Below, piece by piece: positions 1,839 to 46,308 of a DNA stretch of 64,000 bases (its first letter is position 1; every line of letters begins with the position of its first letter). The stretch lies in assembly GCF_000155615.1 (NCBI RefSeq), contig NZ_DS989915.1, forward strand, positions 128,917-192,916, read 5' to 3'. The notes beneath the pieces were generated by a model. It did not search any database. It saw only the letters and a list, made by a program, of their open reading frames with translations, and had not been told where the DNA came from. The stretch is from Alcanivorax sp. DG881. GTDB lineage: Bacteria > Pseudomonadota > Gammaproteobacteria > Pseudomonadales > Alcanivoracaceae. A program made the position numbers and the translations under genes.

Positions 1839-3308
1839 TTATCCCACCTCAATCAGCTGAACATTGCCGTCGTCATCAATTTCCGCAATGTGACCCTTGG
1901 GTTCGTCCAGGAACTGAACCGCGGCCAGAGACACTGCCGCGCTGGCGGCAATCACCAGGAAGAACGTGGACGGATCGACGAACGTGAGCACGGTCAGGAA
2001 GATCACCGCACCGGCATTGCCGTAGGCGCCGACCATGCCGGCAATCTGTCCGGTGAGCCGGCGTTTGATCAGTGGCACGGTGGCGAACACGGCGCCTTCA
2101 CCGGCCTGCACGAAGAACGAGCAACACATGGTGGCGATCACGGCCAGCGCGATGGGCCAGCTGCCAGCAATCTGGCTCATCATTCCGTAGCCCACCATCA
2201 GGCCACACAGCATGATCGCCAGGGATTTCTTGCGGCCAAACTTGTCAGAGACCCAGCCGCCGCCCGGCCGTGCGACCAGGTTCATAAAGGCGTAGCCAGA
2301 CGCGAGCAGGCCGGCGGTCACTGCAGACAGGCTGAAGGTGTCGGTGAAGAACAGCGGCAGCATGGAGACCACGGCCAGTTCTGAACCAAAGGTCACCATG
2401 TAGGCCAGATCAAGAATGGCCACTTGCTTGAAGCTGTAGCGGTCGTGTTCCTCGACGCCGGTTTTCAGGCGTTCATGGTTAACGCGCCAGGCCTGCCCCA
2501 GCTGCACGACTGCCAGGCTGACGATCAGCGCGGCCAGCATGATTTGCGTGGTGGTACCGAACAGATCCAGATTACTGGGGCCCAGGCGCCATACAATCAC
2601 CAGCAGCGCGATATACAGCGGCAGGCTCATCAGCAGGTAGAAAAACAGGTCCTTGCGGCTGCTGACTTCCAGTGCACTGGCTTTTTTTGGTTTGAAATAG
2701 GAGGCGCCCGCCGGGGTGTTGCGAGCCCGCCACAGGAAGAAAACACCGTAAGCCATCGCCAGTGCACCGGTGCTGGCAATTGCCAAGCGCCAGCCATTGT
2801 CACCGCCGAACAGCAGCGCCACGGTAGGAAGCGTAATGGCCGCAGCGGCAGAGCCGAAGTTGCCCCAGCCGCCATAGATACCTTCGGCCAGGCCCACTTC
2901 CCGGGCCGGAAACCATTCACTGATCAGGCGGATGCCGACCACGAAGCCAGCCCCCACAAAACCCATCAGCAGGCGGGTGACTGCCAGCTGTTCAAAGGTG
3001 GTCGACAGGGCAAAGGCCCAGCAGGGAAACGCGGCGAGTATCAGCAACAGGCCGAACACCCGCCGTGGGCCAAAGCGATCCACCAGCGAACCAATCACGA
3101 CGCGGGCAGGAATCGTCAATGCCACGTTAAGAATCAACAGCGCCTTGATCTGTTCTGCACTTAGATCGAAGGCTTCGCGCAGGTGGCCCATTAAGGGCGC
3201 GTGGGAGAACCACACTACAAAGGTAATAAAGAAAGCGAGCCAGCTCAGGTGCAACAGCCGGATGCGTGGCGCGGAAAAATTCAGCAGGTTCAGCTTGTCG
3301 GCGCTCAT
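1839..3308 (-). CDS. narK: NarK-type nitrate/nitrite MFS transporter (copy 1)
   Basis: A 489-residue major-facilitator protein of the nitrate/nitrite porter family, with about twelve predicted membrane helices. Both nitrate-signature segments are visible: GGWGNFG about a third of the way in, and GAYGNAG near the C-terminus. The ATG at 3308 (MSADKLNLL) has GGAG just upstream, whereas the upstream in-frame ATG at 3323 has no better site. A perfect sigma-54 promoter (3351-3366) precedes it. It is closely similar to the next gene upstream (3583-5055), a tandem paralogue. With nirBD and nasA nearby, its likely job is nitrate import, or nitrate/nitrite exchange, for assimilation. Confidence 0.92.
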
Positions 3309-3350
3309 GGTATCTCCATACACGGAAGCATTGATGACAAGTGTGGATAA

Positions 3351-3366
3351 AGCAATCTGCGTGCCA
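3351..3366 (-). promoter_or_regulatory. Sigma-54 (RpoN) promoter of narK1
   Basis: On the minus strand the bases read TGGCACGCAGATTGCT, matching the consensus TGGCACGN4TTGCW at every defined position. The -12 element ends 43 bases upstream of the narK1 ATG, leaving room for a short leader. Only half-sites resembling an NtrC box (GTGCAC near 3462) are visible upstream. Confidence 0.85.
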
Positions 3367-3500
3367 GTTTGTAACGTTATGATTTTAATGAATTAATTTT
3401 GTTTTCTTGTGCGTTTTCAGCAAGCGGGGTGCCTGTTGGTGAAACGACAAGCTGTAGGGTGGTGCACGAAAAGTGTTCGTGATTGGGGCATTGCTCCCTA

Positions 3501-3535
3501 CCCACAGAACCGGGATGGAGCCCCGGTCCTGTGGG
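3501..3535. terminator. Strong hairpin between narK2 and narK1
   Basis: A 14-base stem (3501-3514 with 3522-3535, one mismatch) closes a 7-base loop in the gap between the two transporter genes. It lies about 50 bp past the narK2 stop. There is no U tract on either strand, so it may be an mRNA-stabilising or processing structure rather than an intrinsic terminator. Confidence 0.45.
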
Positions 3536-3582
3536 TGGAGGATGGATGAGAGGCGCGATGAAGCGCGCGCATGTGGGGCCAT

Positions 3583-5055
3583 TCAGCTCACTTCGATTAA
3601 TTGAACGCGGCCATCTTCATCCACCTCTGCAATGTGCCCCTTGGGTTCGTCCAGAAACTGGACGGCAACCAGTACGGCGGTGGCACAGGCGGCGATTACC
3701 AGGAAGAAGGTACTGGCATCCACAAACGTCAGGGCGGTGAGAAAGACCACGGCGCCGGCGTTGCCGTAGGCGCCGACCATGCCGGAAATCTGCCCGGTAA
3801 GGCGGCGTTTGATCAGCGGCACAGTGGCGAAAATGGCACCGCCGCCGCCCTGAATAAAGCAGGAACAGACCATGGTGGCCGCCATGGCGAGAAGCACAGG
3901 CCAGCCGCTGTTGATCTGGCTGAGCAGCACAAAACCCATTAACAAACCGCAAAACAGAATAGTCAGGGATTTCTTGCGGCCAATGCGGTCAGAAAGCCAG
4001 CCGCCACCGGGGCGCGCCACTAAATTGGTGAAGGCAAAGGCGGACGCCAGCAATCCGGCGGTAACCGGAGTGACTTCGCTGAACGTGTCGAGGAAGAACA
4101 ACGGCAGCATGGAATTCACTGCCAGTTCCGAGCCGAACGTAATGAAGTAGGACAGGTTGAGAATGGCCACCTGCTTGAAGGGATAGCTGTCCTGTTCCGG
4201 GGCGCTTTGCTGCCAGCGTTCGCGATTGACCTGCCATATCTGTGATAACTGAATGGCGGCCAGCAAACTGACAGCGACGATGAAAATGGCCTGGGTGCTG
4301 TTGTCGTACAAGCGGAATCCTGCCGGGCCCAGCCGCCACACAATAATGTACAACGCGATGTACAACGGCAGGCTGGCGCCAATATAGAAGAACAGGTCAC
4401 GCCGGTTGCTGACTTCCAGCGCACTGGCTTTTTTCGGTTTGAAATAGGACGCGCCGGCGGGGGTATTGCGCGCGCGCCACATAAAGAACAGCCCGTACAG
4501 GAAGGAGATAAAGCCGGTGCTGGCCACCGCCCAGCGCCAACCGTCTTCGCCACCAAAAAACAGGGCCAGGGTGGGAAGTGTGACGTAAGAGGCAAAGGCA
4601 CCGAAGTTCCCCCAGCCGGCATAAATACCTTCAGCCAGGCCCACCTCCCGGGCGGGAAACCATTCACTGATCAGGCGAATGCCGACCACGAAACTGGCGC
4701 CCACAAAACCCAGTAGCAAGCGGCTGATCGCCAGCTGCTCGAAGCTGTTGGACAAGGCAAAGGCCCAACAGGGCAGGGCCGCACTCATCAGTAGGGTGGA
4801 GAAAACCCGCCGCGGGCCAAACTGGTCCACCAGGGAGCCGATCACCACGCGTGCCGGAATCGTCAGGGCCACGTTCAGAATCAGTAGTGCCTTAACCTGT
4901 TCGCCGGTCAGGTCGAAGACGTCGCGCAGGTGCCCCATTAAGGGGGCGTGGGAAAACCACAGGGCGAAACTGATAAAGAACGCCACCCAACTTAAATGGA
5001 GAAGGCGGATTCGTGGCAAGGAAAAATTCAGAAGATTGAGTCTATCTGCGCTCAT
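3583..5055 (-). CDS. narK: NarK-type nitrate/nitrite MFS transporter (copy 2)
   Basis: A 490-residue nitrate/nitrite porter, collinear and highly similar to the copy at 1839-3308 along its whole length, including the MSAD(K/R)LNLLNFS N-terminus and the C-terminal DEPKGHIAE segment. The signature segments GWGNFG and GAYGNAG are present. The start is the ATG at 5055, with GGAG eight bases upstream. It is transcribed away from nirB, and a near-consensus sigma-54 promoter lies at 5096-5111. The two copies differ most in the membrane segments of the first half, which suggests an old duplication with some specialisation (for example affinity or nitrate versus nitrite). Which copy does which cannot be read from sequence. 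Confidence 0.92.
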   Translation of the reverse strand: MSADRLNLLNFSLPRIRLLHLSWVAFFISFALWFSHAPLMGHLRDVFDLTGEQVKALLILNVALTIPARVVIGSLVDQFGPRRVFSTLLMSAALPCWAFALSNSFEQLAISRLLLGFVGASFVVGIRLISEWFPAREVGLAEGIYAGWGNFGAFASYVTLPTLALFFGGEDGWRWAVASTGFISFLYGLFFMWRARNTPAGASYFKPKKASALEVSNRRDLFFYIGASLPLYIALYIIVWRLGPAGFRLYDNSTQAIFIVAVSLLAAIQLSQIWQVNRERWQQSAPEQDSYPFKQVAILNLSYFITFGSELAVNSMLPLFFLDTFSEVTPVTAGLLASAFAFTNLVARPGGGWLSDRIGRKKSLTILFCGLLMGFVLLSQINSGWPVLLAMAATMVCSCFIQGGGGAIFATVPLIKRRLTGQISGMVGAYGNAGAVVFLTALTFVDASTFFLVIAACATAVLVAVQFLDEPKGHIAEVDEDGRVQLIEVS

Positions 5056-5095
5056 GACTACTCCATGCATGGGCGATTAACGGTGGGGGGTTGCG

Positions 5096-5111
5096 AGCAA
5101 CTCCTGTGCCA
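5096..5111 (-). promoter_or_regulatory. Sigma-54 (RpoN) promoter of narK2
   Basis: The minus strand reads TGGCACAGGAGTTGCT, one base off the TGGCACGN4TTGCW consensus. It sits about 40 bases upstream of the narK2 start. It shares the 324-bp divergent intergenic region with the nirB promoter and with NtrC-like boxes. Confidence 0.8.
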
Positions 5112-5163
5112 GCCAGTTAACTGTTTGATTTGTCTTGGGTAAGCGGTGTTGTTGCGAGGGAAA

Positions 5164-5180
5164 TGCACCGGCTGTGCGCA
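5164..5180. promoter_or_regulatory. Candidate NtrC box, narK2-nirB intergenic region
   Basis: The 17 bases TGCACCGGCTGTGCGCA fit the NtrC pattern TGCAC-N7-GTGCA with one mismatch in the right half. The site lies between the divergent sigma-54 promoters of narK2 and nirB, the usual place for an enhancer serving both. Confidence 0.6.
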
Positions 5181-5210
5181 AAGGGAGAGCGCGATTGTGG
5201 TTCATATCGG

Positions 5211-5226
5211 TGCACATAAAAGTGCA
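5211..5226. promoter_or_regulatory. Second candidate NtrC box, narK2-nirB intergenic region
   Basis: Perfect inverted half-sites TGCAC and GTGCA are separated by 6 rather than the usual 7 bases. A further GTGCAC and GCGCA pair follows at about 5235-5247. The one-base shortening lowers confidence, but the cluster of half-sites suggests a compound enhancer. Confidence 0.5.
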
Positions 5227-5323
5227 TTCATCTCGTGCACTGGCGCATTAAAAGAAAGCAGGTTTTTTGTGGTTATTCGGAAAAAAAGAGAATAAATCCA
5301 TAAATTACATAGAGTTATAAAGT

Positions 5324-5339
5324 TGGCATAGGGATTGCT
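5324..5339 (+). promoter_or_regulatory. Sigma-54 (RpoN) promoter of the nirBD-nasA operon
   Basis: TGGCATAGGGATTGCT matches TGGCACGN4TTGCW at all but two positions and keeps the invariant GG and GC at the correct 10-base spacing. It lies 40 bases upstream of the nirB ATG. Confidence 0.82.
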
Positions 5340-5379
5340 GTAGTGCGGGTGTCAGTTACGCACCGCGAGGGTGAGCCTT

Positions 5380-7911
5380 ATGGCAAAGCAACAACTTCTT
5401 CTGATCGGCCACGGGATGGTCGGACAACGTTATCTGGAGTCTCTGGTGGCCCAGGGTGGCCGGGAGCACTTTGATATTACGGTACTGTGTGCCGAGCCGC
5501 TGCCGGCCTATGACCGCGTAGGGCTGACCAGTTACTTTTCCGGCAAGACCGCCGACGACCTGTCGCTGGTGCCGGAAGGCTTTTTTGAAGAGCACGACAT
5601 TACGCTGAAACTGAATACCAAGGTGGACGCGATTGATCGGGCTGCTAAAACGGTCACCACCAACACCGGTGAGAGCCTGCCTTATGACAAGGTGGTTCTG
5701 GCCACCGGTTCCTATCCGTTCGTGCCGCCGATTCCCGGTAATGATCGCGATAACTGCTTTGTGTACCGCACCATTGATGACCTGGATGCCATGATTGCCG
5801 CCAGTAAAACCGGCAAGGTGGGCACGGTTGTCGGTGGCGGCCTGCTGGGCCTGGAAGCGGCCAAGGCGCTTCACGATCTGGGCCTGGAGACCCACGTGGT
5901 GGAATTCGCCCCGCGCCTGATGGCCGTGCAGGTGGATGATTTTGGTGGCGGTTTGCTGAAAGACAAGATTCAGGAACTGGGCGTCACCGTGCACACCAGC
6001 ACCGGCACCCAGGACATCGTGGATGGTGAACACTGCACGCACCGCATGAATTTCGGTGACGACCAGCATCTGGAAACCGATGTGATTGTCTTCTCTGCGG
6101 GCATTCGTCCCCAGGACGAACTGGGCCGGGCCTGCGAGCTGGCCATTGGTGAACGCGGCGGCATCGTGGTCAACAACCATTGTGTCACCTCCGATGAGCA
6201 CATCTATGCCATTGGCGAAGTGGCGTTGTGGGAAGGTCGCATCTTTGGTCTGGTGGCGCCGGGTTACCAGATGGCCGAGGTGGCCGCTGAACACCTGATG
6301 GGCAAAGCCGAACAGGAATTTGCCGGTGCGGACATGAGCACCAAGCTGAAACTGATGGGCGTGGATGTGGCATCCATTGGTGATGCCCACGGCAATACGC
6401 CCGGTTGTCGCAGCACCGTGTTCATGGACCAGACAGCCGGTGTCTACAAGAAGGCGGTAATCAGTGAGTGTGGCAAGAAACTGCTGGGTGCTGTGTTGGT
6501 GGGCGATGCCGCGGATTACGGCAACCTGTTGCAGCTTTGCCTGAATGAAATGGACCTGCCCGGTGACCCGTCTGCCCTGGTAGCACCCATGTCAGATGGT
6601 GCGCCGCTGCTGGGCGCCGATGCACTGCCTGACACAGCGCAGATCTGTTCCTGTAATAACGTTTCCAAAGGCGATTTGTGTGCCGCCATCGACGGTGGCG
6701 CCCAGACCGTGGGCGACCTGAAAGCCTGCACCAAAGCATCGGCTACCTGTGGCGGTTGTTCCGCGCTGGTGAAGCAAGTGCTGGACAGCGAGCTGGAAAA
6801 ACGCGGTGTGGAAGTGAACAACCACATTTGCGAACACTTCGCGTATTCCCGTCAGGAAATCTATCACCTGGTACGCGTCGGGCAGATCACCACCTTTGAC
6901 GAGCTGCTGGAAAAACACGGTAGCGGTGACGGCTGTGACATCTGTAAGCCGACCGTGGCCAATGTGCTGGCTTCCTGCTGGAACGACTGGGTGCTCAACA
7001 AACCCCATGCCGGGCTGCAGGACACCAACGACTACTTCCTGGGCAACATGCAGCGCGACGGCACCTATTCCATCGTGCCGCGCGTGGCGGGCGGTGAAAT
7101 CACCCCGGACAAACTGATCGTGCTGGGGGAAGTGGCCAAGCAATACGACCTTTATACCAAGATCACCGGCGGCCAGCGGGTGGATTTGTTCGGTGCCCGT
7201 GTCGAGCAGTTGCCGGAAATCTGGAAAATCCTGGTGGATGCCGGATTCGAAACCGGTCACGCCTACGGTAAATCCCTGCGTACGGTGAAATCCTGTGTGG
7301 GGTCCACCTGGTGTCGCTATGGAGTGAAAGACTCCGTAGGCACCGCCATTCAGGTGGAAGACCGCTACAAGGGCTTGCGTAGCCCGCACAAGATCAAGAT
7401 GGCGGTGAGCGGCTGTACCCGTGAGTGCGCGGAAGCGCAAAGCAAGGACGTGGGCGTGATCGCCACCGAGAAAGGCTGGAACCTGTATGTGTGCGGTAAC
7501 GGCGGCATGCGTCCGCGCCATGCGGATCTGTTCGCGTCGGATCTCACCGATGAGCAGCTGATTAAAACCATCGACCGTTTCCTGATGTTCTACATCAAAA
7601 CGGCGGATCGCCTGCAGCGCACCAGCGTCTGGCTGGAAAACCTGGAAGGCGGACTGGACTACCTGAAAGACGTGATCCTGAACGACTCCCTGGGCATGGG
7701 CGACGAACTCGAAGCGCAGATGCAGCACGTGATTGAGACCTATCAGTGCGAGTGGAAGTCCACCATTGAGGATCCGCAAGCGGTGAAACGCTTTAACCAC
7801 TTCATCAATGAGACCGCCGAAGCGGATGACAACCTGGCCTACGTGCGTGAGCGCGGCCAGCGTCGTCCCGCCTACGAGCATGAACGCATCGAACTGGTCG
7901 AGGAGGCGTAA
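5380..7911 (+). CDS. nirB: Assimilatory nitrite reductase [NAD(P)H], large subunit
   Basis: An 843-residue NirB, of normal length, reducing nitrite to ammonium in the cytoplasm with NAD(P)H. Order: N-terminal FAD/NAD(P) reductase (GHGMVGQRY start, second Rossmann motif GGGLLGLEAAK), a BFD-like [2Fe-2S] domain (CSCNNV ... CGGC), a second cysteine-containing segment (CDICKP), then the sulfite/nitrite reductase half with siroheme-4Fe4S cysteines in CVGSTWC and CTREC plus CGNGG. The ATG at 5380 is preferred over a GTG at 5371 because GAGGGTGAG sits just upstream of it. It is the first gene of nirB-nirD-FAD reductase-nasA, driven by a sigma-54 promoter. Confidence 0.97.
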   Translation: MAKQQLLLIGHGMVGQRYLESLVAQGGREHFDITVLCAEPLPAYDRVGLTSYFSGKTADDLSLVPEGFFEEHDITLKLNTKVDAIDRAAKTVTTNTGESLPYDKVVLATGSYPFVPPIPGNDRDNCFVYRTIDDLDAMIAASKTGKVGTVVGGGLLGLEAAKALHDLGLETHVVEFAPRLMAVQVDDFGGGLLKDKIQELGVTVHTSTGTQDIVDGEHCTHRMNFGDDQHLETDVIVFSAGIRPQDELGRACELAIGERGGIVVNNHCVTSDEHIYAIGEVALWEGRIFGLVAPGYQMAEVAAEHLMGKAEQEFAGADMSTKLKLMGVDVASIGDAHGNTPGCRSTVFMDQTAGVYKKAVISECGKKLLGAVLVGDAADYGNLLQLCLNEMDLPGDPSALVAPMSDGAPLLGADALPDTAQICSCNNVSKGDLCAAIDGGAQTVGDLKACTKASATCGGCSALVKQVLDSELEKRGVEVNNHICEHFAYSRQEIYHLVRVGQITTFDELLEKHGSGDGCDICKPTVANVLASCWNDWVLNKPHAGLQDTNDYFLGNMQRDGTYSIVPRVAGGEITPDKLIVLGEVAKQYDLYTKITGGQRVDLFGARVEQLPEIWKILVDAGFETGHAYGKSLRTVKSCVGSTWCRYGVKDSVGTAIQVEDRYKGLRSPHKIKMAVSGCTRECAEAQSKDVGVIATEKGWNLYVCGNGGMRPRHADLFASDLTDEQLIKTIDRFLMFYIKTADRLQRTSVWLENLEGGLDYLKDVILNDSLGMGDELEAQMQHVIETYQCEWKSTIEDPQAVKRFNHFINETAEADDNLAYVRERGQRRPAYEHERIELVEEA

Positions 7912-7914
7912 GCC

Positions 7915-8259
7915 ATGAACAGCGCAGTGACCGTGGAATGGAAAGCAATCTGCAGCGTTGACGACGTATTGCCGGGCACAGGAGTGGGCGTGCGTCTGCC
8001 CTCTGGGCAGGCGGCATTGTTCCGCACCCGTGATGGCAATTTCTATGCGTTGGACAACATGGACCCGTTTAGCCATGCCAACGTACTCAGCCGGGGACTG
8101 CTGGGCTCATTGGGTGACAAACGTGTTGTCGCCTCACCGCTGTACAAGCAGCACTTTGAGCTGGAAACCGGGCAATGCATCGAAGACGACAGCGTTAAGC
8201 TGACCGTGTACCCGGTGCGTGTGCAAGGTGATGTGATCGAACTGGCCACCCCGGCCTGA
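7915..8259 (+). CDS. nirD: Nitrite reductase small subunit
   Basis: A 114-residue NirD with a Rieske-like beta fold. As expected for assimilatory NirD, the Cys/His ligands of true Rieske proteins are missing (YALDNMDPFSHANVLSRG, then SPLYKQHFELETGQC). It partners NirB in the cytoplasm. It starts three bases after the nirB stop, with GAGGAGG overlapping the end of nirB, so translation is probably coupled. Confidence 0.95.
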   Translation: MNSAVTVEWKAICSVDDVLPGTGVGVRLPSGQAALFRTRDGNFYALDNMDPFSHANVLSRGLLGSLGDKRVVASPLYKQHFELETGQCIEDDSVKLTVYPVRVQGDVIELATPA

Positions 8260-8284
8260 AACAAATCGACAGGACGACGCGCGC

Positions 8285-9538
8285 ATGAAGCGACTGGTTG
8301 TAGTGGGTAATGGCATGGCGGCTTGCCGCCTGCTGGAAGAGCTGACCCGCCTGGCACCGGATCTGTATCAGATCACGGTGGTGGGGGATGAGCCCTTCGC
8401 CGGCTATAACCGCGTCATGTTGTCGCCGCTGTTGGGTGGTGGCACCGATGAGAAAACCATTACCACGCACCCGCACCAGTGGTATCGGGATCGCAATATT
8501 CGTTTGATTACCGGCACCCCGGTGGTGGCTATTCATCGCCGCCGCCGGCAGGTGGAAACCGCCGCCGGGCACCTGCTGGATTATGATCGGTTGTTGCTGG
8601 CGACAGGTGCGGCACCGCGCCAGTTGCCGGTGGAAGGTGTCACCCTGGATGGTGTTGTCAGTTTTCGTGACTTGTACGACGTGCGCCGGTTGTTGTCGCT
8701 CCCGGCTGCCCGGGTGGTGGTTGTGGGCGGCGGTTTTTTGGGTCTGGAAGCCGCGGACGCGCTGGTGAAGCAGGGGCACGACGTGACTCTGGTCCACAGT
8801 CGCGGCCATCTGCTCAACCAGCAGCTGGATGAAAGTGCAGGGCATCGCCTGCAACAGGACCTGGAGGCCCGCGGGCTCAAGTTCGTCATGCAGGCGCGTA
8901 CCCAGTCCATCGAAGACAACGGCCAGGGCGCGGTTGCGGCTGTGCACCTGGCAGATGGCCAGCGGTTGCCCGCGGATTATGTGGTGCAGGCGGTGGGCAT
9001 TGTGCCCCGTGCCGAGCTGGCCGCCAGTGCCGGGCTGACCGTGAATCAAGGGGTGCGGGTGGATGACACCCTGCAGACCTTTGATCCGGCCATCTATGCC
9101 ATCGGTGAGTGTGTGGAGCACCGCGAGCGCACCTTTGGCCTGGTGGCGCCGCTGTACGAGCAGGCGTCGGTCTGTGCCAGCCACCTGGCCGAGCTGGGCC
9201 ATCGCCGTTATCTGTATGCGGATTCCGCCACACGATTAAAAATTTCCGGTATCGATCTGGTGTCCTGTGGCGATTTTCTCGGTGACCGGGGCAAGGGAAC
9301 AGAGCAGGGGGAAACCCTGCAGCTGAATCTGCCCGGCAGCTACCGGCGTGTACAGATTCGCGATAACCGTGTGGTCGGCATGGTGTTGTACGGCGATGTG
9401 TCTGACGCCCCGTTTTTCGAAAAACTGTGGAAAGAAAAGACGGACATCGGCGCGCTGCGTGAAGCCCTGTTGCTGGGCGAGGTTTTCTGCAAACGCCCCG
9501 GCGACAGTGATGAGCATTCGGAGGAAGTCGCTGCGTGA
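8285..9538 (+). CDS. FAD/NAD(P)-dependent reductase for nitrate reductase (NasB-like)
   Basis: A 417-residue pyridine-nucleotide disulfide oxidoreductase-type flavoprotein. It resembles the N-terminal half of NirB (VVGNGMAACRLLEEL, ATGAAPRQ, VVGGGFLGLEAAD, YAIGE) but stops before any siroheme or BFD domain. In the operon it sits between nirD and nasA, and its stop overlaps the nasA start (GTGA). The most likely role is passing electrons from NAD(P)H to the C-terminal iron-sulfur domain of NasA. A nitrite-side or rubredoxin-reductase-like function cannot be excluded from sequence alone. Confidence 0.85.
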   Translation: MKRLVVVGNGMAACRLLEELTRLAPDLYQITVVGDEPFAGYNRVMLSPLLGGGTDEKTITTHPHQWYRDRNIRLITGTPVVAIHRRRRQVETAAGHLLDYDRLLLATGAAPRQLPVEGVTLDGVVSFRDLYDVRRLLSLPAARVVVVGGGFLGLEAADALVKQGHDVTLVHSRGHLLNQQLDESAGHRLQQDLEARGLKFVMQARTQSIEDNGQGAVAAVHLADGQRLPADYVVQAVGIVPRAELAASAGLTVNQGVRVDDTLQTFDPAIYAIGECVEHRERTFGLVAPLYEQASVCASHLAELGHRRYLYADSATRLKISGIDLVSCGDFLGDRGKGTEQGETLQLNLPGSYRRVQIRDNRVVGMVLYGDVSDAPFFEKLWKEKTDIGALREALLLGEVFCKRPGDSDEHSEEVAA

Positions 9539-12195
9539 GTGTTGAAGCGAAGATCCAGGAAACGGAGCCAAAGAACGCCCCGTTATCTACCTGTACGACC
9601 TGCCCGTACTGCGGCGTCGGTTGTGGTATCCGCACCGACGGCGTAACCCTGAAAGGGGACACGCAGCACCCGGCCAATGCCGGGCGGCTATGCGTCAAAG
9701 GCTCATCGGTACTGGAAACCCTGGGTGATCAAGATCGCCTGCTGAATCCGGAAGTGGATGGCGAAGTGGTGTCCTGGGACCAGGCGCTGGATGAAGTGGC
9801 AGGGCGCTTCCGGCGTATCGTTGACGAACACGGCCCGGATGCCGTGGCGTTCTACGTTTCCGGCCAGCTGCTGACAGAAGATTATTACGTGGCCAACAAG
9901 CTGATGAAGGGCTACATCGGCAGCGCCAATATCGATACCAATTCCCGCCTGTGCATGAGCAGCGCTGTGGTGGCCCACAAGCGGGCGTTTGGTGAAGACG
10001 TGGTGCCCGGCTGCTACGAAGATCTGGAGCTGGCGGATCTGGTTATCCTCACCGGGTCCAATACCGCCTGGGCGCATCCCATCGTGTACCAGCGCATCGT
10101 GGCCGCCAAACAGGCGCGCCCGGATATGAAAGTGGTGGTGATTGATCCTCGCCGCACGGCTACCTGTGACCTGGCTGATCTGCATCTGGCCATTCGCCCG
10201 GGGCAGGACGTGCCGCTGTTCAATGGCCTGCTCACCTGGCTGGACGACAACAAGGCGCTGGACCAGGCCTACATCGATGCTCACACCGAAGGCTTTCAGG
10301 CCACCCTGGAGACTGCCCGCAGACAGGGCAACGATTGGGAAGCACTGGCCGCGAAGATGGGCGTGAGCAAGGTGGACCTGACCACGTTTTACCACTGGTT
10401 CGCCGCCTGCGAGCGCACGGTCACCGTGTTCTCCCAGGGCGTGAACCAGGCCCGCAACGGGTCTGACCAGGGCAATGCCATTATCAATGCCCACCTGGCC
10501 ACCGGCCGTGTCGGCAAGTCCGGCGCCAGCCCGTTTTCAATCACCGGCCAACCCAACGCCATGGGGGGCCGGGAAGTGGGGGGGCTGGCCAATCAGCTGG
10601 CCGTGCACCTGGATATCGATAACCCGGCGCACCACGCCGCCGTGGCGGACTTCTGGCAGGCGCCGGCGTTGGCCACAAAAAATGGTCTTACAGCGGTTGA
10701 ATTGTTCGAGGCGGTTTCCAGCGGCGAGGTGAAAGCCGTGTGGATCATGGCCACCAACCCGGTGGACTCCCTCCCGGAAGCGGACAAGGTACGCCAGGCC
10801 CTGATGGCCTGCGACACCGTGGTGGTGTCCGACTGCGTGGCCAGCGGTGACACGCTTGCCTGCGCGGATATTCGCTTGCCGGCCCTGGGCTGGGGCGAGA
10901 AATCCGGTATGGTCACCAACTCAGAGCGATGCGTATCGCGCCAGCGGCCATTTGTGCCAGCCCCCGGGCAAGCGAAAGCAGACTGGTGGATTATTACCGA
11001 AGTGGCTCAACGCATGGGCTTTGCCGACGCTTTTCCCTACCAGCATGAACACGACATTTTTGCCGAGTACTCGGCGCTCACCGCGGTGGCTGGCCAATTT
11101 GGCAAGCGGCTGGATTTGACCGGAGCCGCGGATCTGAGCGCCGACCAATATGCCCAGTGGCAGCCACAGCACTGGCCGCTGAACGGCGACCCTCGCTGCT
11201 ATGCCGACGGCCAGTTTTCTACTCCCAGTGGGCGGGCCCGTTTTGTGAGCTGTGAAAATCCACCCGCGCGCCAGATCGGTGATGCCTTCCCGATTATTCT
11301 CAACAGCGGGCGGATTCGGGACCAGTGGCACACCATGACGCGCACCGGCCGTGCCGGGCGTCTGTTTGCCCACCTCAGCGAGCCCTTTGCGGCGTTGCAT
11401 CCCCAGGATATTGAGCGTTACCGGCTGCAGGAGGGCGGCTTCGTGCGCCTGACCAGCCGTGTCGGTGATGCGTTGGTGCGGGTCACCCGCGATACCGGGC
11501 AGCGCCCCGGCACCGCGTTCATGCCCATGCACTGGACCGATCAGTTTTCTCGCCGCGCCCGGGTGGATGCCCTGGTGCCGGCACGTCTGGATCCGCATTC
11601 CGGCCAGCCGGCGTTCAAGCATACGCCGGTGAATGTCAGCGACTGGCAACCCCGCTGGCATGGCTGGTTGTTCACGGCGGCGTCCCCACCCGCCGTGGAG
11701 TACTGGGCCCGAGTTCCCGTCGATGCATTTTTGCAGGCGGGCCAGGTACAACGCTATCGGCTGGCCGGCGATGCGGACCTAACCGAACAACAGCTTCACG
11801 ACTGGCTGCCCCAGGCTGCCCAGTGGCTGGCGCTGAACGATCCCGCCACGGGACACTACCGGCGCGCGGCGCTGGACAAGGACGGCCACTTGCTGGCCTG
11901 GCTGGCCATCGGCGAAACCCTGCCAGTGTGTGATGTGGATTGGCTGGCAGACTGTTTTGCTGTGGAGGCGGACATCCAGCACATGGCGATCCTGGCCGGG
12001 CAACCGGCGGATGCCGGCCCGGATCTGGGGCCAGTGATTTGCAGTTGTTTCCAGGTCCGTCAGAAAACCATCGAGGGTGTGGTGGAAGAGGGCGCGGATT
12101 CCGTGGAAGCCATTGGCAAAGGCTGCCAGGCGGGCACCAATTGTGGCTCCTGTATTCCGGAGCTGCGGGGCTTGCTGGAAACCTGCACCAGCTAA
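9535..12195 (+). CDS. nasA: Assimilatory nitrate reductase catalytic subunit
   Basis: An 886-residue molybdopterin oxidoreductase reducing nitrate to nitrite in the cytoplasm. The N-terminal 4Fe-4S ligands are C23, C26, C30 and the cysteine of GRLCVKG. The Mo-bisMGD domain follows (NSRLCMSSAV, SQGVNQ, TGRVGKSGASPFSITGQPNAMGGREVGG), then the molydopterin dinucleotide-binding domain (NSGRIRDQWHTMTRTG). It ends in a BFD-like [2Fe-2S] domain (ICSCFQV ... GTNCGSCIPEL), typical of NasA proteins reduced by a partner flavoprotein. It starts at a GTG overlapping the previous stop, with GGAGG 10 bases upstream. Its TAA stop lies inside the target duplication of a MITE-like element. Confidence 0.95.
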   Translation: MSVEAKIQETEPKNAPLSTCTTCPYCGVGCGIRTDGVTLKGDTQHPANAGRLCVKGSSVLETLGDQDRLLNPEVDGEVVSWDQALDEVAGRFRRIVDEHGPDAVAFYVSGQLLTEDYYVANKLMKGYIGSANIDTNSRLCMSSAVVAHKRAFGEDVVPGCYEDLELADLVILTGSNTAWAHPIVYQRIVAAKQARPDMKVVVIDPRRTATCDLADLHLAIRPGQDVPLFNGLLTWLDDNKALDQAYIDAHTEGFQATLETARRQGNDWEALAAKMGVSKVDLTTFYHWFAACERTVTVFSQGVNQARNGSDQGNAIINAHLATGRVGKSGASPFSITGQPNAMGGREVGGLANQLAVHLDIDNPAHHAAVADFWQAPALATKNGLTAVELFEAVSSGEVKAVWIMATNPVDSLPEADKVRQALMACDTVVVSDCVASGDTLACADIRLPALGWGEKSGMVTNSERCVSRQRPFVPAPGQAKADWWIITEVAQRMGFADAFPYQHEHDIFAEYSALTAVAGQFGKRLDLTGAADLSADQYAQWQPQHWPLNGDPRCYADGQFSTPSGRARFVSCENPPARQIGDAFPIILNSGRIRDQWHTMTRTGRAGRLFAHLSEPFAALHPQDIERYRLQEGGFVRLTSRVGDALVRVTRDTGQRPGTAFMPMHWTDQFSRRARVDALVPARLDPHSGQPAFKHTPVNVSDWQPRWHGWLFTAASPPAVEYWARVPVDAFLQAGQVQRYRLAGDADLTEQQLHDWLPQAAQWLALNDPATGHYRRAALDKDGHLLAWLAIGETLPVCDVDWLADCFAVEADIQHMAILAGQPADAGPDLGPVICSCFQVRQKTIEGVVEEGADSVEAIGKGCQAGTNCGSCIPELRGLLETCTS

Positions 12196-15464: not shown

Positions 15465-15652
15465 TTCCGCAGACTGTAATCAAAAAGTTGTCTTGAGCCT
15501 TGTTCAGACACTAATGGGTAACGCTGGCTACGCTTGTTAACAGTCTACCAACCTCCTTGCTCTACAGCAGATTGCACATCCCTTCCATAGTCGTTGATAC
15601 CAGCTCCTGTTCTGGGGGCCATAACGACAAAGATATGATGGAGGGGTTCATC

Positions 15653-18600
15653 TTGGCTAATCAATTCAAACTTCTGGTCGGCAGCAGCGCCCTTGCGGCA
15701 ATGCTGGCAGCCTGTGGTGGGGGAGGCAGCAGTTCAGCGCCAGCTTCCAACACCTCGGACGCTGCCACGCGCGCGCTACCACCGGAAATCGCAGAGATCA
15801 TCGACGAACAGAATGAGCTCACCGATGCCTTGTGTCCGGATGCGTCTGGCGACGCCGGTGAAGGGGGATCCATGGATCCCGGTGAGTGTTTGACTGAAGG
15901 TGAAGAAGGGTCGGAAGACGACACCGGTTTCGAGCTGTCACAGGACATGATTGTCCAGCAGTTCTGCCCGGATGCGGCGGTGGCCTTTGATCCTGCCGGC
16001 CTGTTTGATCCGGCCATGCTGCAGGAAGATCCGCAGGCTGCCCTGACCGGGTTCTTCGAGCAGTCCGGCACCTTTGCTGCGGCTTGTTTGCAGGAAGCGG
16101 CGGGCAATCTTCAGAACGCAGGCGATCTGCTGGGCGGTTCCAACCCGATTACCGAGGCGATCTGCCCGGAAGAATCCCTGGACGGTAACGTTGACCCGGC
16201 CAACTGCTTCGCAGAAGCCGCTGCTGGTGGCAATTTGCCCGGTGGTGGTGACGGTGGCGATGGCGCCGCAGACCCGATTGCCGAGCAGCTTTGCCCGGAA
16301 ACCGGCTCGATTGCGCCCAACCCGGCCTCTCCAACCGCGTGTCTGGATGAAGCCAGCCGTGTCTATATCACCATCATCGACATGATCACCGCGCCCAATC
16401 CGCTGACAGAACAGATCTGTCCTCAGGATGCGGCGGATGGCCGAGTGAACCCGCCGGATTGCTTCGCCGAAGCGACCATGGGTATTGGTGGTTTCCCCGG
16501 CGACCCGGGCGGTGGCGATGGCAGCAACCCGTTTGCGCCGGTACTGGAACAATTCTGTCCGGATACCGCTGCCGCACCGATCGGCCCGACAACCCCTGTG
16601 GACTGTCTGGCGGAAGCGGGCGGTGATTTCGAAGATGTGCAGGACTTGCTGCTGGGCCCGAACCCGCTGACCGAGAACCTGTGTCCGGAAGCGGCCCAGA
16701 CCACGCCGATTGATCCAGCAGCCTGCTTCATGGAAGTTGGCGGTGGCGGACTGCCCGGTGGCGGTGGTGGCGATAACCCGCTGGCGCCAGTACTGGAACA
16801 GTTCTGTCCTGAAACCGCTGCAGGTGAAGTGGGCCCGACCACGCCCATCGACTGTCTGACTGAAGCCGGTTCTGCGTTTGGTGACGTTCAGGACCTGTTG
16901 CTGGGCCCGAACCCGCTGACGGAAAACCTGTGCCCTGAAGCGGCTCAGACCACGCCGATTGACCCGGCAGCCTGCTTCGAAGAAGCGGCCGGTGGTGCTG
17001 GCGGTCTGCCCGGCGGTGGCGGTGATAACCCGCTGGCGCCAGTGCTGGAACAATTCTGTCCGGAAACCGCTGAAAACGAAGTCGGCCCGACCACCCCGGT
17101 AGATTGCCTGGCGGAAGCCGGTGGCAACTTCCAGGACGTGCAGGATCTGCTGCTCGGTCCGAACCCGCTGACAGAAAACCTGTGCCCGGAAGCGGCCCAG
17201 ACCACGCCTATCGATCCGGCTGCCTGCTTTGAAGAAGCGGCCGGTGGTGCTGGCGGCCTGCCCGGTGGTGGCGGTGATAACCCGCTGGCACCGGTGCTGG
17301 AGCCGTTCTGTCCGGAAACCGCTGCAGGCGAAGTGGGCCCGACCACGCCCATCGACTGTCTGACCGAAGCCGGTTCCGCCTTTGGCGACGTTCAGGATCT
17401 GATCTCCGGTTCCAACCCGCTGACCGAGGCGCTGTGCCCGGAAGAGTCTGCTGACGGCACGGTTGATCCGGCTGCCTGCTTTGAAGAGGCTGCCGGTGGT
17501 GCAGGCGGTCTGCCCGGTGGTGGCGGTGATAACCCGCTGGCGCCGGTGCTGGAACAGTTCTGCCCGGAAACCGCTGAAAACGAAGTCGGCCCGACCACCC
17601 CGGTAGATTGCCTGGCGGAAGCCGGTGGCAACTTCCAGGACGTACAGGACCTGCTGCTGGGTTCCAACCCGCTGACCGAGCAACTGTGCCCGGAGGCGTC
17701 TGCGGATGCTCCGATTGATCCGGCAGCCTGCTTTATGGAAGCGGCCGGTGGTCTTGCACCGGGCGGTGGTGAGCTGCCGGGTGCTGATGGCAACCCGCTG
17801 GAACCGGTACTGGCTCAATTCTGCCCGGACACCTCCGAAGCAGATTTGGGCCCGACCACGCCGATCGATTGTCTGACTGAAGCTGGTGGCAACTTTGGCG
17901 ATGTGCAGGACCTGTTGCTGGGCAGCAACCCGCTGACCGAGCAGCTGTGTCCAGAAGCCTCTGCGGATGCACCCATTGATCCGGCAGCCTGTTTCATGGA
18001 AGCGGCCGGTGGTCTTGCGCCAGGCGGTGGTGAGCTGCCGGGTGCCGATGGCAACCCGCTGGAGCCGGTACTGGCACAATTCTGCCCGGACACCTCCGAG
18101 GCGGATCTGGGACCGACCACTCCGCTGGATTGCTTGACCGAAGCGGGCGGTAACTTTGGCGACGTGCAGGACCTGCTGCTGGGCAGCAATCCGCTGACCG
18201 AGCAACTGTGTCCGGAAGCCTCTGCAGATAGCCCGATTGATCCGGCAGCCTGCTTTATGGAAGCGGCCGGTGGTCTTGCGCCAGGCGGTGGTGAGCTGCC
18301 GGGTGCCGATGGCAACCCGCTGGAGCCGGTACTGGCTCAATTCTGCCCGGACACCTCCGAAGCAGATCTGGGCCCGACCACTCCACTGGATTGCCTGACC
18401 GAAGCGGGCGGTAACTTTGGTGACGTACAGGACCTGCTGTTGGGCAGCAACCCGCTGACCGAGCAATTGTGTCCGGAAGCCTCTGCAGATAGCCCGATTG
18501 ATCCGGCTGCCTGTTTCGAAGAAGCCGCTGGTGGTTTTGCTCCGGGTGGTGGTGGCCTGCCGGGTGCCGATGGCAACCCGTTGGCGCCAGTACTGGGTCA

Positions 18601-18940
18601 GTTCTGCCCGGATGCTTCCGAAGCGGATCTGGGGCCGACGACGCCTTTCGATTGTCTGATTGAAGCCGGTTCTGCTTTCGGAGACATTCAGGATGCAATC
18701 TCGGGCTCCAATCCGCTGACCGACCAGATTTGTTCAGAAGAGTCTGCCGACGGTAACGTGGACCCTGCGGCGTGTTTCATGGAAGCCATCAGTGGTGGCG
18801 CTGGCGGTGACGGCACGCCGCTTGATCCGATCCTTGATGGAATCTGCCCTGATGCAGCAGCGGGTGGCCTTAGCCCGACGCTGGCATTCGAGTGTTTGCT
18901 GGAGGGAGGTTCTGGCTTGGCCGGTTTGTTCGGCGGCTAA
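15653..18940 (+). CDS. Giant repeat lipoprotein with four-cysteine tandem repeats
   Basis: A 1,095-residue protein that I do not recognise as a known family. The start is inferred to be the TTG at 15653, because GGAGGGG lies seven bases upstream and the signal peptide then reads cleanly to a lipobox (AMLAAC) followed by GGGG. After a degenerate N-terminal copy come eleven repeats of 76-88 residues. Each typically holds four cysteines in the order LCPE, ACF, FCP and DCL, a glycine-rich linker (LPGGGG) and the spacer VQDLLLG. Units 3-6 are 84 residues and units 7-10 are 87. It is strongly acidic with very few aromatic residues. It is probably exported to the outer membrane or cell surface, with disulfide-linked modules. 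It is followed by a terminator and seems monocistronic. Confidence 0.85.
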   Translation: MANQFKLLVGSSALAAMLAACGGGGSSSAPASNTSDAATRALPPEIAEIIDEQNELTDALCPDASGDAGEGGSMDPGECLTEGEEGSEDDTGFELSQDMIVQQFCPDAAVAFDPAGLFDPAMLQEDPQAALTGFFEQSGTFAAACLQEAAGNLQNAGDLLGGSNPITEAICPEESLDGNVDPANCFAEAAAGGNLPGGGDGGDGAADPIAEQLCPETGSIAPNPASPTACLDEASRVYITIIDMITAPNPLTEQICPQDAADGRVNPPDCFAEATMGIGGFPGDPGGGDGSNPFAPVLEQFCPDTAAAPIGPTTPVDCLAEAGGDFEDVQDLLLGPNPLTENLCPEAAQTTPIDPAACFMEVGGGGLPGGGGGDNPLAPVLEQFCPETAAGEVGPTTPIDCLTEAGSAFGDVQDLLLGPNPLTENLCPEAAQTTPIDPAACFEEAAGGAGGLPGGGGDNPLAPVLEQFCPETAENEVGPTTPVDCLAEAGGNFQDVQDLLLGPNPLTENLCPEAAQTTPIDPAACFEEAAGGAGGLPGGGGDNPLAPVLEPFCPETAAGEVGPTTPIDCLTEAGSAFGDVQDLISGSNPLTEALCPEESADGTVDPAACFEEAAGGAGGLPGGGGDNPLAPVLEQFCPETAENEVGPTTPVDCLAEAGGNFQDVQDLLLGSNPLTEQLCPEASADAPIDPAACFMEAAGGLAPGGGELPGADGNPLEPVLAQFCPDTSEADLGPTTPIDCLTEAGGNFGDVQDLLLGSNPLTEQLCPEASADAPIDPAACFMEAAGGLAPGGGELPGADGNPLEPVLAQFCPDTSEADLGPTTPLDCLTEAGGNFGDVQDLLLGSNPLTEQLCPEASADSPIDPAACFMEAAGGLAPGGGELPGADGNPLEPVLAQFCPDTSEADLGPTTPLDCLTEAGGNFGDVQDLLLGSNPLTEQLCPEASADSPIDPAACFEEAAGGFAPGGGGLPGADGNPLAPVLGQFCPDASEADLGPTTPFDCLIEAGSAFGDIQDAISGSNPLTDQICSEESADGNVDPAACFMEAISGGAGGDGTPLDPILDGICPDAAAGGLSPTLAFECLLEGGSGLAGLFGG
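16142..18940 (+). repeat. Tandem coding repeats (252-261 bp units)
   Basis: Eleven head-to-tail units within the lipoprotein gene. Units 7-10 begin at 17666, 17927, 18188 and 18449, exactly 261 bp apart, and are nearly identical in DNA. Units 3-6 are 252 bp. The N-terminal units are more divergent, so the array seems to have grown recently toward its 3' end. Confidence 0.92.
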
Positions 18941-18965
18941 GTTAGCCCTGCTAACCGTTTGAAGA

Positions 18966-18992
18966 AGCCCGGCAATTGCCGGGCTTTTTTTG
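18966..18992 (+). terminator. Intrinsic terminator of the repeat lipoprotein gene
   Basis: The stem AGCCCGGC/GCCGGGCT with an AATT loop is followed by a run of seven T, starting about 25 bp after the stop codon. Confidence 0.92.
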
Positions 18993-45133: not shown

Positions 45134-46237
45134 CTAGCTGTGCTTGGCAATGTCTTCTGCAATGGCCAGTGCCGCAGTCAGCCCCGGTGATTCAATCCCC
45201 AGCAGGTTGATCATGCCTTTGATGCCGTGCTCCTTTTCTCCCTGCAGCAGAAAATCCCGATAGGGCTCTCCTTTTATAAACAGCTTGGGGCGGATGCCGG
45301 TGTAGGCAGGGGAGAGTCTGTCTGTGTTCAGGTCTGGCCAGTAGCGTCGTATCGCTTCTTCGAAGTGCGGCAGCCGGGCGCTGTTGACCTGGTAATCCCT
45401 GTGTTCGATCCATTCCACATCCGGGCCGAAGCGGGCCTGGCCGGCCAGGTCCACGGTGAGGTGGATGCCCAATCCGTCTGCTTCCGGTGGCGGATAGATC
45501 AGCCTTCGGGTGGGGCTGTGTCCACTGAGGGAAAAATAATTGCCCCGGGCCAGCCGTTGTTCGGGAATCTTTTTTGCGGGAAAGCCGCTGCAGCGTTTCA
45601 GTAGGGGAACGGCATCCAGGCCGGCGGTATTGATCAGTTGTCGGCACTGTAATTCGAAAGGGCTGTCGTCGCTGTCCACCTGGAGCAGGAAATGTCCGGG
45701 TTCACAGTTGATCCGGCGCACCCGGTGGCGATAGCACAGCAGGGCATGATGTTCCTGTGCCTGCTCGGCAAGGCGCCCCATCAACGCATGGCTGTCGAGG
45801 ATGCCACTGTTTTCGCTGAGTAGGGCCTCGCTGGCATGCAGCCAGGGTTCTTGCCGCTGCAGCCACTGCTGAGTGCAGCGGTGTAATCCTTCGGCACCGC
45901 TGTTCAAAGCGTTGTGATGTAGTTGCTCCAGTGAGTCCTGCTGTCCTGCATTGGCTACGATCAGCTTGCCGCACCGTCGGTAGGGGATGGTTTGTTCCTG
46001 GCAATACCGGTACAGCAGGGTGTTGCCGCGCAGGCACAGGCGGGCTTTCAGGGAATCTGGCGGGTAATAGAGGCCGGCGTGGATGACTTCGCTGTTGCGG
46101 GAGGAGAGGTGCTCGCCAAAGTGGCTTTCTTGCTCGAGTAGAACCACTGACCTTGAAGGGGCAAGTTCACGAGCGATAGCCAGGCCGATCATGCCGGCAC
46201 CGATAATGACGGTATCGATGGTTTCCCGTGGTTGCAC
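45134..46237 (-). CDS. FAD-dependent oxidoreductase (L-2-hydroxyglutarate oxidase-like)
   Basis: A 367-residue DAO-superfamily flavoprotein with the dinucleotide motif VIIGAGMIGLAIARELA. The SSRNSEVIHAGLYYPP segment that follows is characteristic of the L-2-hydroxyglutarate oxidase/dehydrogenase group, and YTGIRPKL occurs near the C-terminus. It probably oxidises a small 2-hydroxy acid. It is located just downstream of the LTA-synthase-like gene on the same strand, after a hairpin. Confidence 0.85.
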   Translation of the reverse strand: MQPRETIDTVIIGAGMIGLAIARELAPSRSVVLLEQESHFGEHLSSRNSEVIHAGLYYPPDSLKARLCLRGNTLLYRYCQEQTIPYRRCGKLIVANAGQQDSLEQLHHNALNSGAEGLHRCTQQWLQRQEPWLHASEALLSENSGILDSHALMGRLAEQAQEHHALLCYRHRVRRINCEPGHFLLQVDSDDSPFELQCRQLINTAGLDAVPLLKRCSGFPAKKIPEQRLARGNYFSLSGHSPTRRLIYPPPEADGLGIHLTVDLAGQARFGPDVEWIEHRDYQVNSARLPHFEEAIRRYWPDLNTDRLSPAYTGIRPKLFIKGEPYRDFLLQGEKEHGIKGMINLLGIESPGLTAALAIAEDIAKHS

Positions 46238-46258
46238 TTGTGGTCAGCCCATAAATGA

Positions 46259-46283
46259 TAACGCCCTCAGTCTGAGGGCGTTA
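46259..46283 (-). terminator. Hairpin after the LTA-synthase-like gene
   Basis: A perfect 12-bp stem TAACGCCCTCAG with CTGAGGGCGTTA, 25 bp downstream of the stop. A weak U-rich tail (TCATTTAT) follows on the minus strand. Confidence 0.6.
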
Positions 46284-46308
46284 CCGGTAGCCCACAAGAG
46301 GCTGGAGG

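Follow-up and report, generated by a model that had tools for sequence, protein, structure and literature searches.

Saposin-like proteins consist of helical, disulfide-locked and acidic units of about 80 residues that are repeated within one precursor and carry six cysteines, and the Cys_rich_FGFR repeat (PF00839) is likewise rich in cysteines. Here we analysed a stretch of 64,000 nucleotides (nt) from Alcanivorax sp. DG881 (assembly GCF_000155615.1, contig NZ_DS989915.1, positions 128,917 to 192,916 of the forward strand; hereafter, the window), in which a single gene encodes a large acidic lipoprotein made of tandem four-cysteine repeats. This is a lineage-restricted, conserved and unusual lipoprotein, whose general kind (the repetitive lipoprotein) is known and whose repeat family is new. 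We tentatively read it as an outer-membrane-anchored, probably surface-exposed and protease-resistant chain of disulfide-locked helical beads that would serve as a coat, spacer or adhesin.

The likeness to saposin-like proteins lies in unit length, acidity, repetition and a predicted helical, disulfide-locked build, while the cysteine pattern differs: units carry four cysteines, not six, and no SapB model stood among the matches listed. With Cys_rich_FGFR there is a weak profile similarity around C...CL.E, the score of which stays below the cut-off (13.6 bits for member 1 versus 22); eight of 54 members matched at an expectation value (E) up to 1, the best being 0.025. A PF00839 search of 115 genomes of the order returned no member, but its control matched nowhere either. 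Over the whole protein, CW_7 (PF08230) and DUF1482 (PF07358) reached 23.6 and 22.8 bits versus a cut-off of 25, and no single stretch passed. No model of Pfam, NCBIfam or PDB scored above cut-off for the protein, and the best hit of a PDB sequence search with the unit profile had an E of 0.89, to unrelated enzymes. A known repeat family was thus ruled out within the libraries searched (PHROGs and PADLOC lay outside the search), in agreement with the first-pass annotation, which had recognised no described family.

The protein contains 49 cysteines, one in the lipobox (Cys 21) and 48 in the mature chain. The gaps between them are mostly 16, 26, 14 and then 24-32, and the repeat is better read as an alternation of two-cysteine half-modules: A (C-x15-C), with the sequence ...NPLAPVLEQFCPET...GPTTPxDCLTEAG..., and B (C-x13-C), with the sequence NPLTExLCPE...DPAACFxEA..., after which comes a Gly/Pro linker. 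The chain has eleven A+B units, flanked on both sides by a lone two-cysteine half-module (11 x 4 + 2 + 2 = 48). Ten units measure 80-88 residues and the first 109, its A-type cysteine pair being 40 apart; the tandem repeats are visible at the DNA level too. The first-pass annotation had described eleven repeats of 76-88 residues, typically with four cysteines, together with glycine-rich linkers and an acidic composition. The number of repeats, the four-cysteine pattern, the linkers and the acidity all stand; the sizes do not, a half-module has to be added at each end, and "typically" can be dropped, as 11 of 11 units have four cysteines.

The same annotation had let its proposal depend on the cysteines being conserved among homologues, and they are. 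When 161 units of the window and its relatives are aligned by profile, cysteine occupies the four columns in 160, 161, 161 and 161 cases, and all four are invariant among 40 non-redundant units. The sole exception in a non-redundant set of 104 rows is unit 1 of the window, whose 40-residue cysteine gap shifts the alignment. Across the 161 units the Cys, Asn, Pro and Glu residues of the repeat are almost invariant.

The spacing of the cysteines points to one disulfide within each half-module. In 18 proteins, the two cysteines of a pair were 14 or 16 apart in 276 of 324 cases (the rest being 13, 15, 17, 18, 20 or 40), while the gaps between pairs ranged from 19 to 62, and it is this contrast between fixed and variable distances that suggests the pairing. 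The lone half-modules at the ends, with only their own two cysteines nearby, favour it as well. Beyond the lipid cysteine, the number of cysteines was even in 24 of 24 family proteins counted, four of them incomplete; the 24, all with a lipobox, were retained out of 30 fragments, the other six being left out because of N runs, a missing lipobox or N-terminus and, once, a wrong frame. The gap from A to B is loose in nine Alloalcanivorax proteins (26 in 9, 29 in 25, 31 in 2 and 34 in 4 of 40), so that disulfides between different half-modules appear disfavoured. Thiol-type metal binding by the cysteines is weakened by their strict pairing.

Structure prediction supports helical segments and a flexible linker in the unit. 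The model of one unit (104 rows) had a mean predicted local distance difference test score (pLDDT) of 76.4, about 90 over residues 1-30 and below 50 over the tail at 77-84, with a predicted template modelling score (pTM) of 0.44 and helices at 5-8, 13-16, 24-44, 48-53 and 65-75. Two units modelled together (54 rows) gave a mean pLDDT of 65.6, a pTM of 0.46 and helices only, with the linker at 75-84 below 50. Thus, the structure prediction proposed earlier, made here for one and for two repeats, yields helices and a flexible linker, and a compact fold is not established by it. The earlier idea of disulfide-linked beads fits the fixed spacing within pairs, the even cysteine count and the predicted helical unit with its low-confidence linker; between the alternatives offered with it (fibre, metal- or calcium-binding coat, spacer) no result makes a separation.

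The composition of the chain is extreme. The 1075 residues of the mature protein include 0 Lys, 3 Arg and 183 Asp+Glu, a net charge of about -180, and the other 23 proteins counted have 0-2 Lys and 1-7 Arg, the value of 7 coming from the interrupted frame L060. Lys+Arg amount to 0.4% of the open reading frame (ORF) compared to a mean of 9.3%, and a minimum of 4.4%, in 42 further ORFs of the window, mechanically chosen among those that are long and start with ATG. Few sites for trypsin-type cleavage are therefore available.

The gene and its signals are listed in Table 1. Of the two features claimed in the first-pass annotation, its lipobox was confirmed and its start at 15653 is supported. The TTG lies six bases 3′ of the ribosome-binding site and is found at the equivalent place in all 23 loci of this type (hereafter type A) with a readable N-terminus, the window counted; in Alloalcanivorax the frames open one codon ahead of it, making TTG the first possible start there. 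A weak start codon fixed in 23 of 23 loci behind a near-perfect ribosome-binding site is unusual. The signal peptide ends in LAA-C, with the lipobox LANQFKLLVGSSALAAMLAA|C placing the cysteine at residue 21, as in bacterial lipoproteins. The full-length frame is open in all type-A loci except L060, loci at contig ends or with N runs excluded; in L060 (G006 C1, about 422-424 kb) it is split into open frames of 718 and 337 residues, by mutation or assembly error. The hairpin listed as a probable terminator was absent from the list produced by a pattern scan.

Table 1. Coordinates of the lipoprotein gene, its repeat units and its flanking signals in the window
Feature	Position	Strand	Basis or remark
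Conserved upstream (probable promoter) region, including CTACA-N19-CATAGTC at 15562-15592	15526..15592	+	Alignment of 23 loci
Ribosome-binding site GGAGGGG	15640..15646	+	Sequence; identical in 22/23 loci, GGAGGGA in 1
Acidic disulfide-bead lipoprotein gene (bead reading tentative), TTG start, 1095 amino acids (aa)	15653..18940	+	Open frame read from sequence
Predicted signal peptide, residues 1-20, MANQFKLLVGSSALAAMLAA with TTG as Met	15653..15712	+	Sequence; general lipobox rule
Putative lipidated cysteine, residue 21, then GGGGSSS	15713..15715	+	Lipobox
N-terminal lone half-module, Cys 61 and Cys 79	15833..15889	+	Cys positions
Unit 1, 109 aa, Cys 105, 145, 171, 185, long first loop	15932..16258	+	Cys positions
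Unit 2, 88 aa	16259..16522	+	
Unit 3, 83 aa	16523..16771	+	
Unit 4, 84 aa	16772..17023	+	Modelled alone and together with unit 5
Unit 5, 84 aa	17024..17275	+	
Unit 6, 84 aa	17276..17527	+	
Unit 7, 87 aa	17528..17788	+	
Unit 8, 87 aa	17789..18049	+	
Unit 9, 87 aa	18050..18310	+	
Unit 10, 87 aa	18311..18571	+	
Unit 11, 80 aa	18572..18811	+	
C-terminal lone half-module (Cys 1065, 1081) and Gly-rich tail	18812..18940	+	Cys positions
Probable intrinsic terminator, hairpin and T run	18961..18990	+	RNA fold -22.1 kcal/mol, z -5.9

We found confirmed relatives at 23 loci of the named genome collection, labelled Alcanivorax, Alloalcanivorax, Alcanivoracaceae and, once, a Pseudomonadales metagenome-assembled genome (MAG). 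Within the family, the unit profile matched 37 of 46 genomes at E up to 0.001, that is, 17/17 of Alcanivorax (g1), 13/13 of Alloalcanivorax (g3), 7/7 of a third genus (g4) and 0/9 of five other genera. All 37 encode some member of the family, and some of the matches are to a type-B gene (see below), not to type A. At the level of the order, 16 of 390 genomes matched, all within the same three of 142 genera; this search scored at most the best 14 candidates per genome and the class-wide search the best 2, so that distant relatives may be missed. Class-wide, profile A3 also matched 17 other genomes (E 4.9e-6 or weaker), which we attribute to chance composition, since every one of the 17 starts within profile positions 1-9, in the signal peptide, and 14 reach no further than position 73. 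A phage or mobile origin was ruled out by the lack of a confirmed relative in viral contigs and by the constant chromosomal locus.

Type B is a second lipoprotein, encoded elsewhere in the genome and full of IPVLGDLL repeats. Like type A, type-B proteins (for example L109, at L109:7381-9297, equivalent to G015 45380-47296) have a lipobox followed by a Gly/Ser-rich stretch, are acidic, contain few Lys/Arg and carry CP...C half-modules in their first part; unlike type A, they lie at another locus, consist mostly of the hydrophobic repeats and contain fewer cysteines (the frames L109-L111 and L113-L117, of type B or hybrid, have 15-18). None of the six frames of the window contains the IPVLGDLL motif, so that its lipoprotein does not belong to type B, and the sole match of the window genome to type B was weak, covering query residues 5-113, and fell on a hydrolase-like lipoprotein. 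Matches of L109 to several type-A proteins, with E from about 1e-4 to 2e-6, fall on internal residues within 162-328, and for this reason the two branches look homologous, although shared composition may raise the scores. Homology of the N-terminal half-modules with type B also appeared in the class-search profile, the E-value of which is not independent as the profile contains the hybrids L074 and L075. Type B occurs in L109 and its relatives L113-L117 and L140, and at 70% identity or more to L109 in 8 of 17 Alcanivorax genomes, G015 among them; no Pfam model matched above cut-off in L109 and L114, the two scanned. In two genomes there is a third, more diverged copy (L139:4539-6305 and G004 C1:517184-518692; 35% identity to the type-B query).

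The g4 genomes carry hybrids (L074, L075, L110-L112) that begin with type-A half-modules, as type A does, and share with it an upstream element (below) and an even cysteine number (L074, L075); they differ in the CDPADPASC-type and IPVLGDI repeats that follow, and none of the seven neighbours of the window gene that were compared adjoins them. Two of these hybrids, L110 and L074, scored just under the DUF4112 cut-off (22.7 and 19.1 bits versus 23.3).

The type-A locus is constant. A DAHP synthase gene adjoins the lipoprotein gene in 21 of 26 loci, the other five stopping at a contig end, and, wherever the contig extends far enough, potassium-channel, redox or alpha/beta-hydrolase genes lie on the opposite flank; the 26 loci come from fewer than 26 genomes, as L038 and L042, and likewise L045 and L050, are contig-end halves of one gene. 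In all five genomes read for this purpose (G015, G029, G025, G064 and G059) the DAHP synthase locus lacks the lipoprotein gene, and in G015 about 200 bases separate the end of the potassium-channel match from the DAHP synthase match. By the profile criterion, the number of full units ranges from 3 to 11 among complete type-A proteins. Among 97 units from 12 proteins, 28 are strictly nearer to a unit of their own protein than to any unit of others. Most of them stand mid-array in L031, L062 and the window, frequently with a spacing of two units, and in L034 units 3 and 5, and units 4 and 6, are identical over the 70 residues compared. Last units mostly match last units of other species, the window and L031 being exceptions. 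The pattern is consistent with one or two units having been gained, lost and homogenised in some of the arrays but not in every one.

The locus may also be mosaic. In L036, a MAG and the nearest relative, the flanking proteins are 97-99% identical to those of the window and the lipoprotein is quite different. In 500-base steps along L036, identity to the window was 93-97% over the first 2,500 bases, 79-87% over 2,501-5,000, about 70-83% in the lipoprotein gene (5001-7301) and 97-98% over 7,501-10,000; for the flanks of either side it was mostly 95-98%. Against L034, it was the lipoprotein gene of L036 that was most similar (89-93%), with flanks mostly at 82-90%. It looks as if the L036 gene had been replaced by an allele of another species. 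Allele replacement is common for surface proteins, and such a mosaic would be as expected of a surface gene.

Upstream of the gene, about 70 bases appear conserved in Alcanivorax and Alloalcanivorax, as judged by eye from two genus-wise alignments of the 23 loci. They include CTACA-N(16-23)-[CT]ATAGTC, present in 23/23 type-A loci and ending 42-83 nt ahead of the start. The motif occurs once in the 64-kb window and in 0/10 type-B loci, and it recurs as CTACA-N-TATAGTC in 5/5 g4 hybrid loci, at another locus. The form with N(17-21) occurs twice in the genome, as does a reversed control; the motif alone is therefore not rare enough for significance, and what is significant is its constant position. 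No promoter was recognised in this region by a sigma-70 consensus scan, and a known structured RNA was ruled out by the lack of any Rfam match at gathering score. The type-B genes of Alloalcanivorax (L114-L117) are preceded by ATGACGTAAATCAC-like sites, which we take to resemble a CRP-type operator.

How might such a protein act? In the account we tentatively favour, the lipoprotein is the product of one gene, equipped with a conserved upstream region of its own, a strong ribosome-binding site, a conserved TTG start, a lipobox and a terminator-like hairpin, and it carries 24 cysteine pairs of nearly constant internal spacing. Following what is generally known of Gram-negative lipoproteins, it would cross the inner membrane by Sec, be lipidated at Cys 21, be oxidised in the periplasm by Dsb and be carried to the outer membrane by Lol. 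As the sequence pattern suggests, one disulfide across the loop would clamp each half-module into a helix-loop-helix, two half-modules would form one small helical bead, and the glycine-rich linkers would string the beads into a long, flexible and very acidic chain, altered in length and sequence by recombination. Its most likely role would be that of an extended, protease-resistant surface polymer on cells at oil-water interfaces. The idea of a role at the interface gains appeal, though not proof, from the restriction of the family to oil degraders.

The chain might instead stay inside the outer membrane to which it is anchored and fill or span the periplasm as an acidic polymer. We consider such a strut rather unlikely, even though the lipobox alone carries no surface signal, disulfides form in the periplasm, and no exporter was present among the neighbour genes compared. 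An array of 3 to 11 full units suits a fixed span poorly, and the near absence of Lys/Arg together with the mosaic locus better suits exposure to the outside. Variable length, poverty in Lys/Arg, size and the mosaic together speak for the cell surface rather than for a strut in the periplasm. Also unlikely, and more so, is an action resembling that of saposins, in which amphipathic helices of the beads would keep alkanes or glycolipid bound at the surface of the cell. In its favour, the family is confined to three genera, among them the hydrocarbon-degrading Alcanivorax and Alloalcanivorax. The longest predicted helix contains an amphipathic stretch of 17 residues, with a moment of 0.34 that 2.65% of shuffles reached (only this stretch was shuffled), and hydrophobic IPVLGDLL repeats abound in the related proteins of type B and in the hybrids. 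However, a saposin profile was missing from the matches listed, and the very acidic chain is not obviously greasy.

The charge of -180 over the mature 1075 residues could recommend the beads as binders of calcium or other divalent ions, forming a coat or a cross-linked gel. No calcium-binding family matched, though, and strict cysteine pairing counts against thiol metal sites, so that we find a cation binder improbable. Least credible, in our opinion, is that recombination simply grows an array under little constraint, giving length without function. Unit number does vary, some arrays are homogenised and the gene is missing at its locus in the five genomes named above, yet Cys, Asn, Pro and Glu hardly change in 161 units, the upstream region, ribosome-binding site and TTG are conserved, and every evaluable type-A locus but L060 retains an intact full-length frame.

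Several points weigh against the favoured account of a surface chain of beads. Surface exposure, oxidation state and function, and oil binding likewise, we infer from sequence. In nine Alcanivorax proteins the gap from A to B is nearly fixed (26 in 73/80 and 29 in 7/80), which leaves pairing between half-modules no worse than disfavoured, and with low pTM values (0.46, 0.44) and a mean pLDDT of 65.6 for two units a compact bead is no more than plausible. With 28 of 97 units nearest within their own protein, homogenisation is limited to some arrays; the mosaic case comes from a single MAG contig, which may be chimeric through misassembly. Type A is dispensable, since G015 and five Alloalcanivorax genomes (G025, G029, G057, G059 and G064) have type-B matches only. 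The literature found does not link the protein to oil or biofilm. The passages available from PMC4981847, PMC7187450 and PMC12046545 do not name it; those of PMC7187450 list an unnamed hypothetical protein 2342 in an Alcanivorax exoproteome; the passages of PMC12046545 present flagella and glycolipid as known or proposed contributors to adhesion; and those of PMC7857515 do not address a poly-Gly stretch as a surface signal.

A broader proposal, which we also regard as unlikely, is that these lipoproteins form a new modular class of surface protein, in which a lipid anchor bears dozens of helical mini-beads, each locked independently by disulfides, and which would have evolved in one oil-degrading family as a protease-proof interface that holds cells on hydrocarbon, with the IPVLGDLL proteins of type B as a greasier branch.

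To our knowledge, the grip of Alcanivorax on oil has not been fully explained, and how these bacteria hold on to it is a question of practical weight. The present work adds a large family of envelope proteins, named by no library searched, that is amenable to deletion, shaving and purification in cultured species. If exposed at the surface, it would represent a new design of repetitive surface protein.

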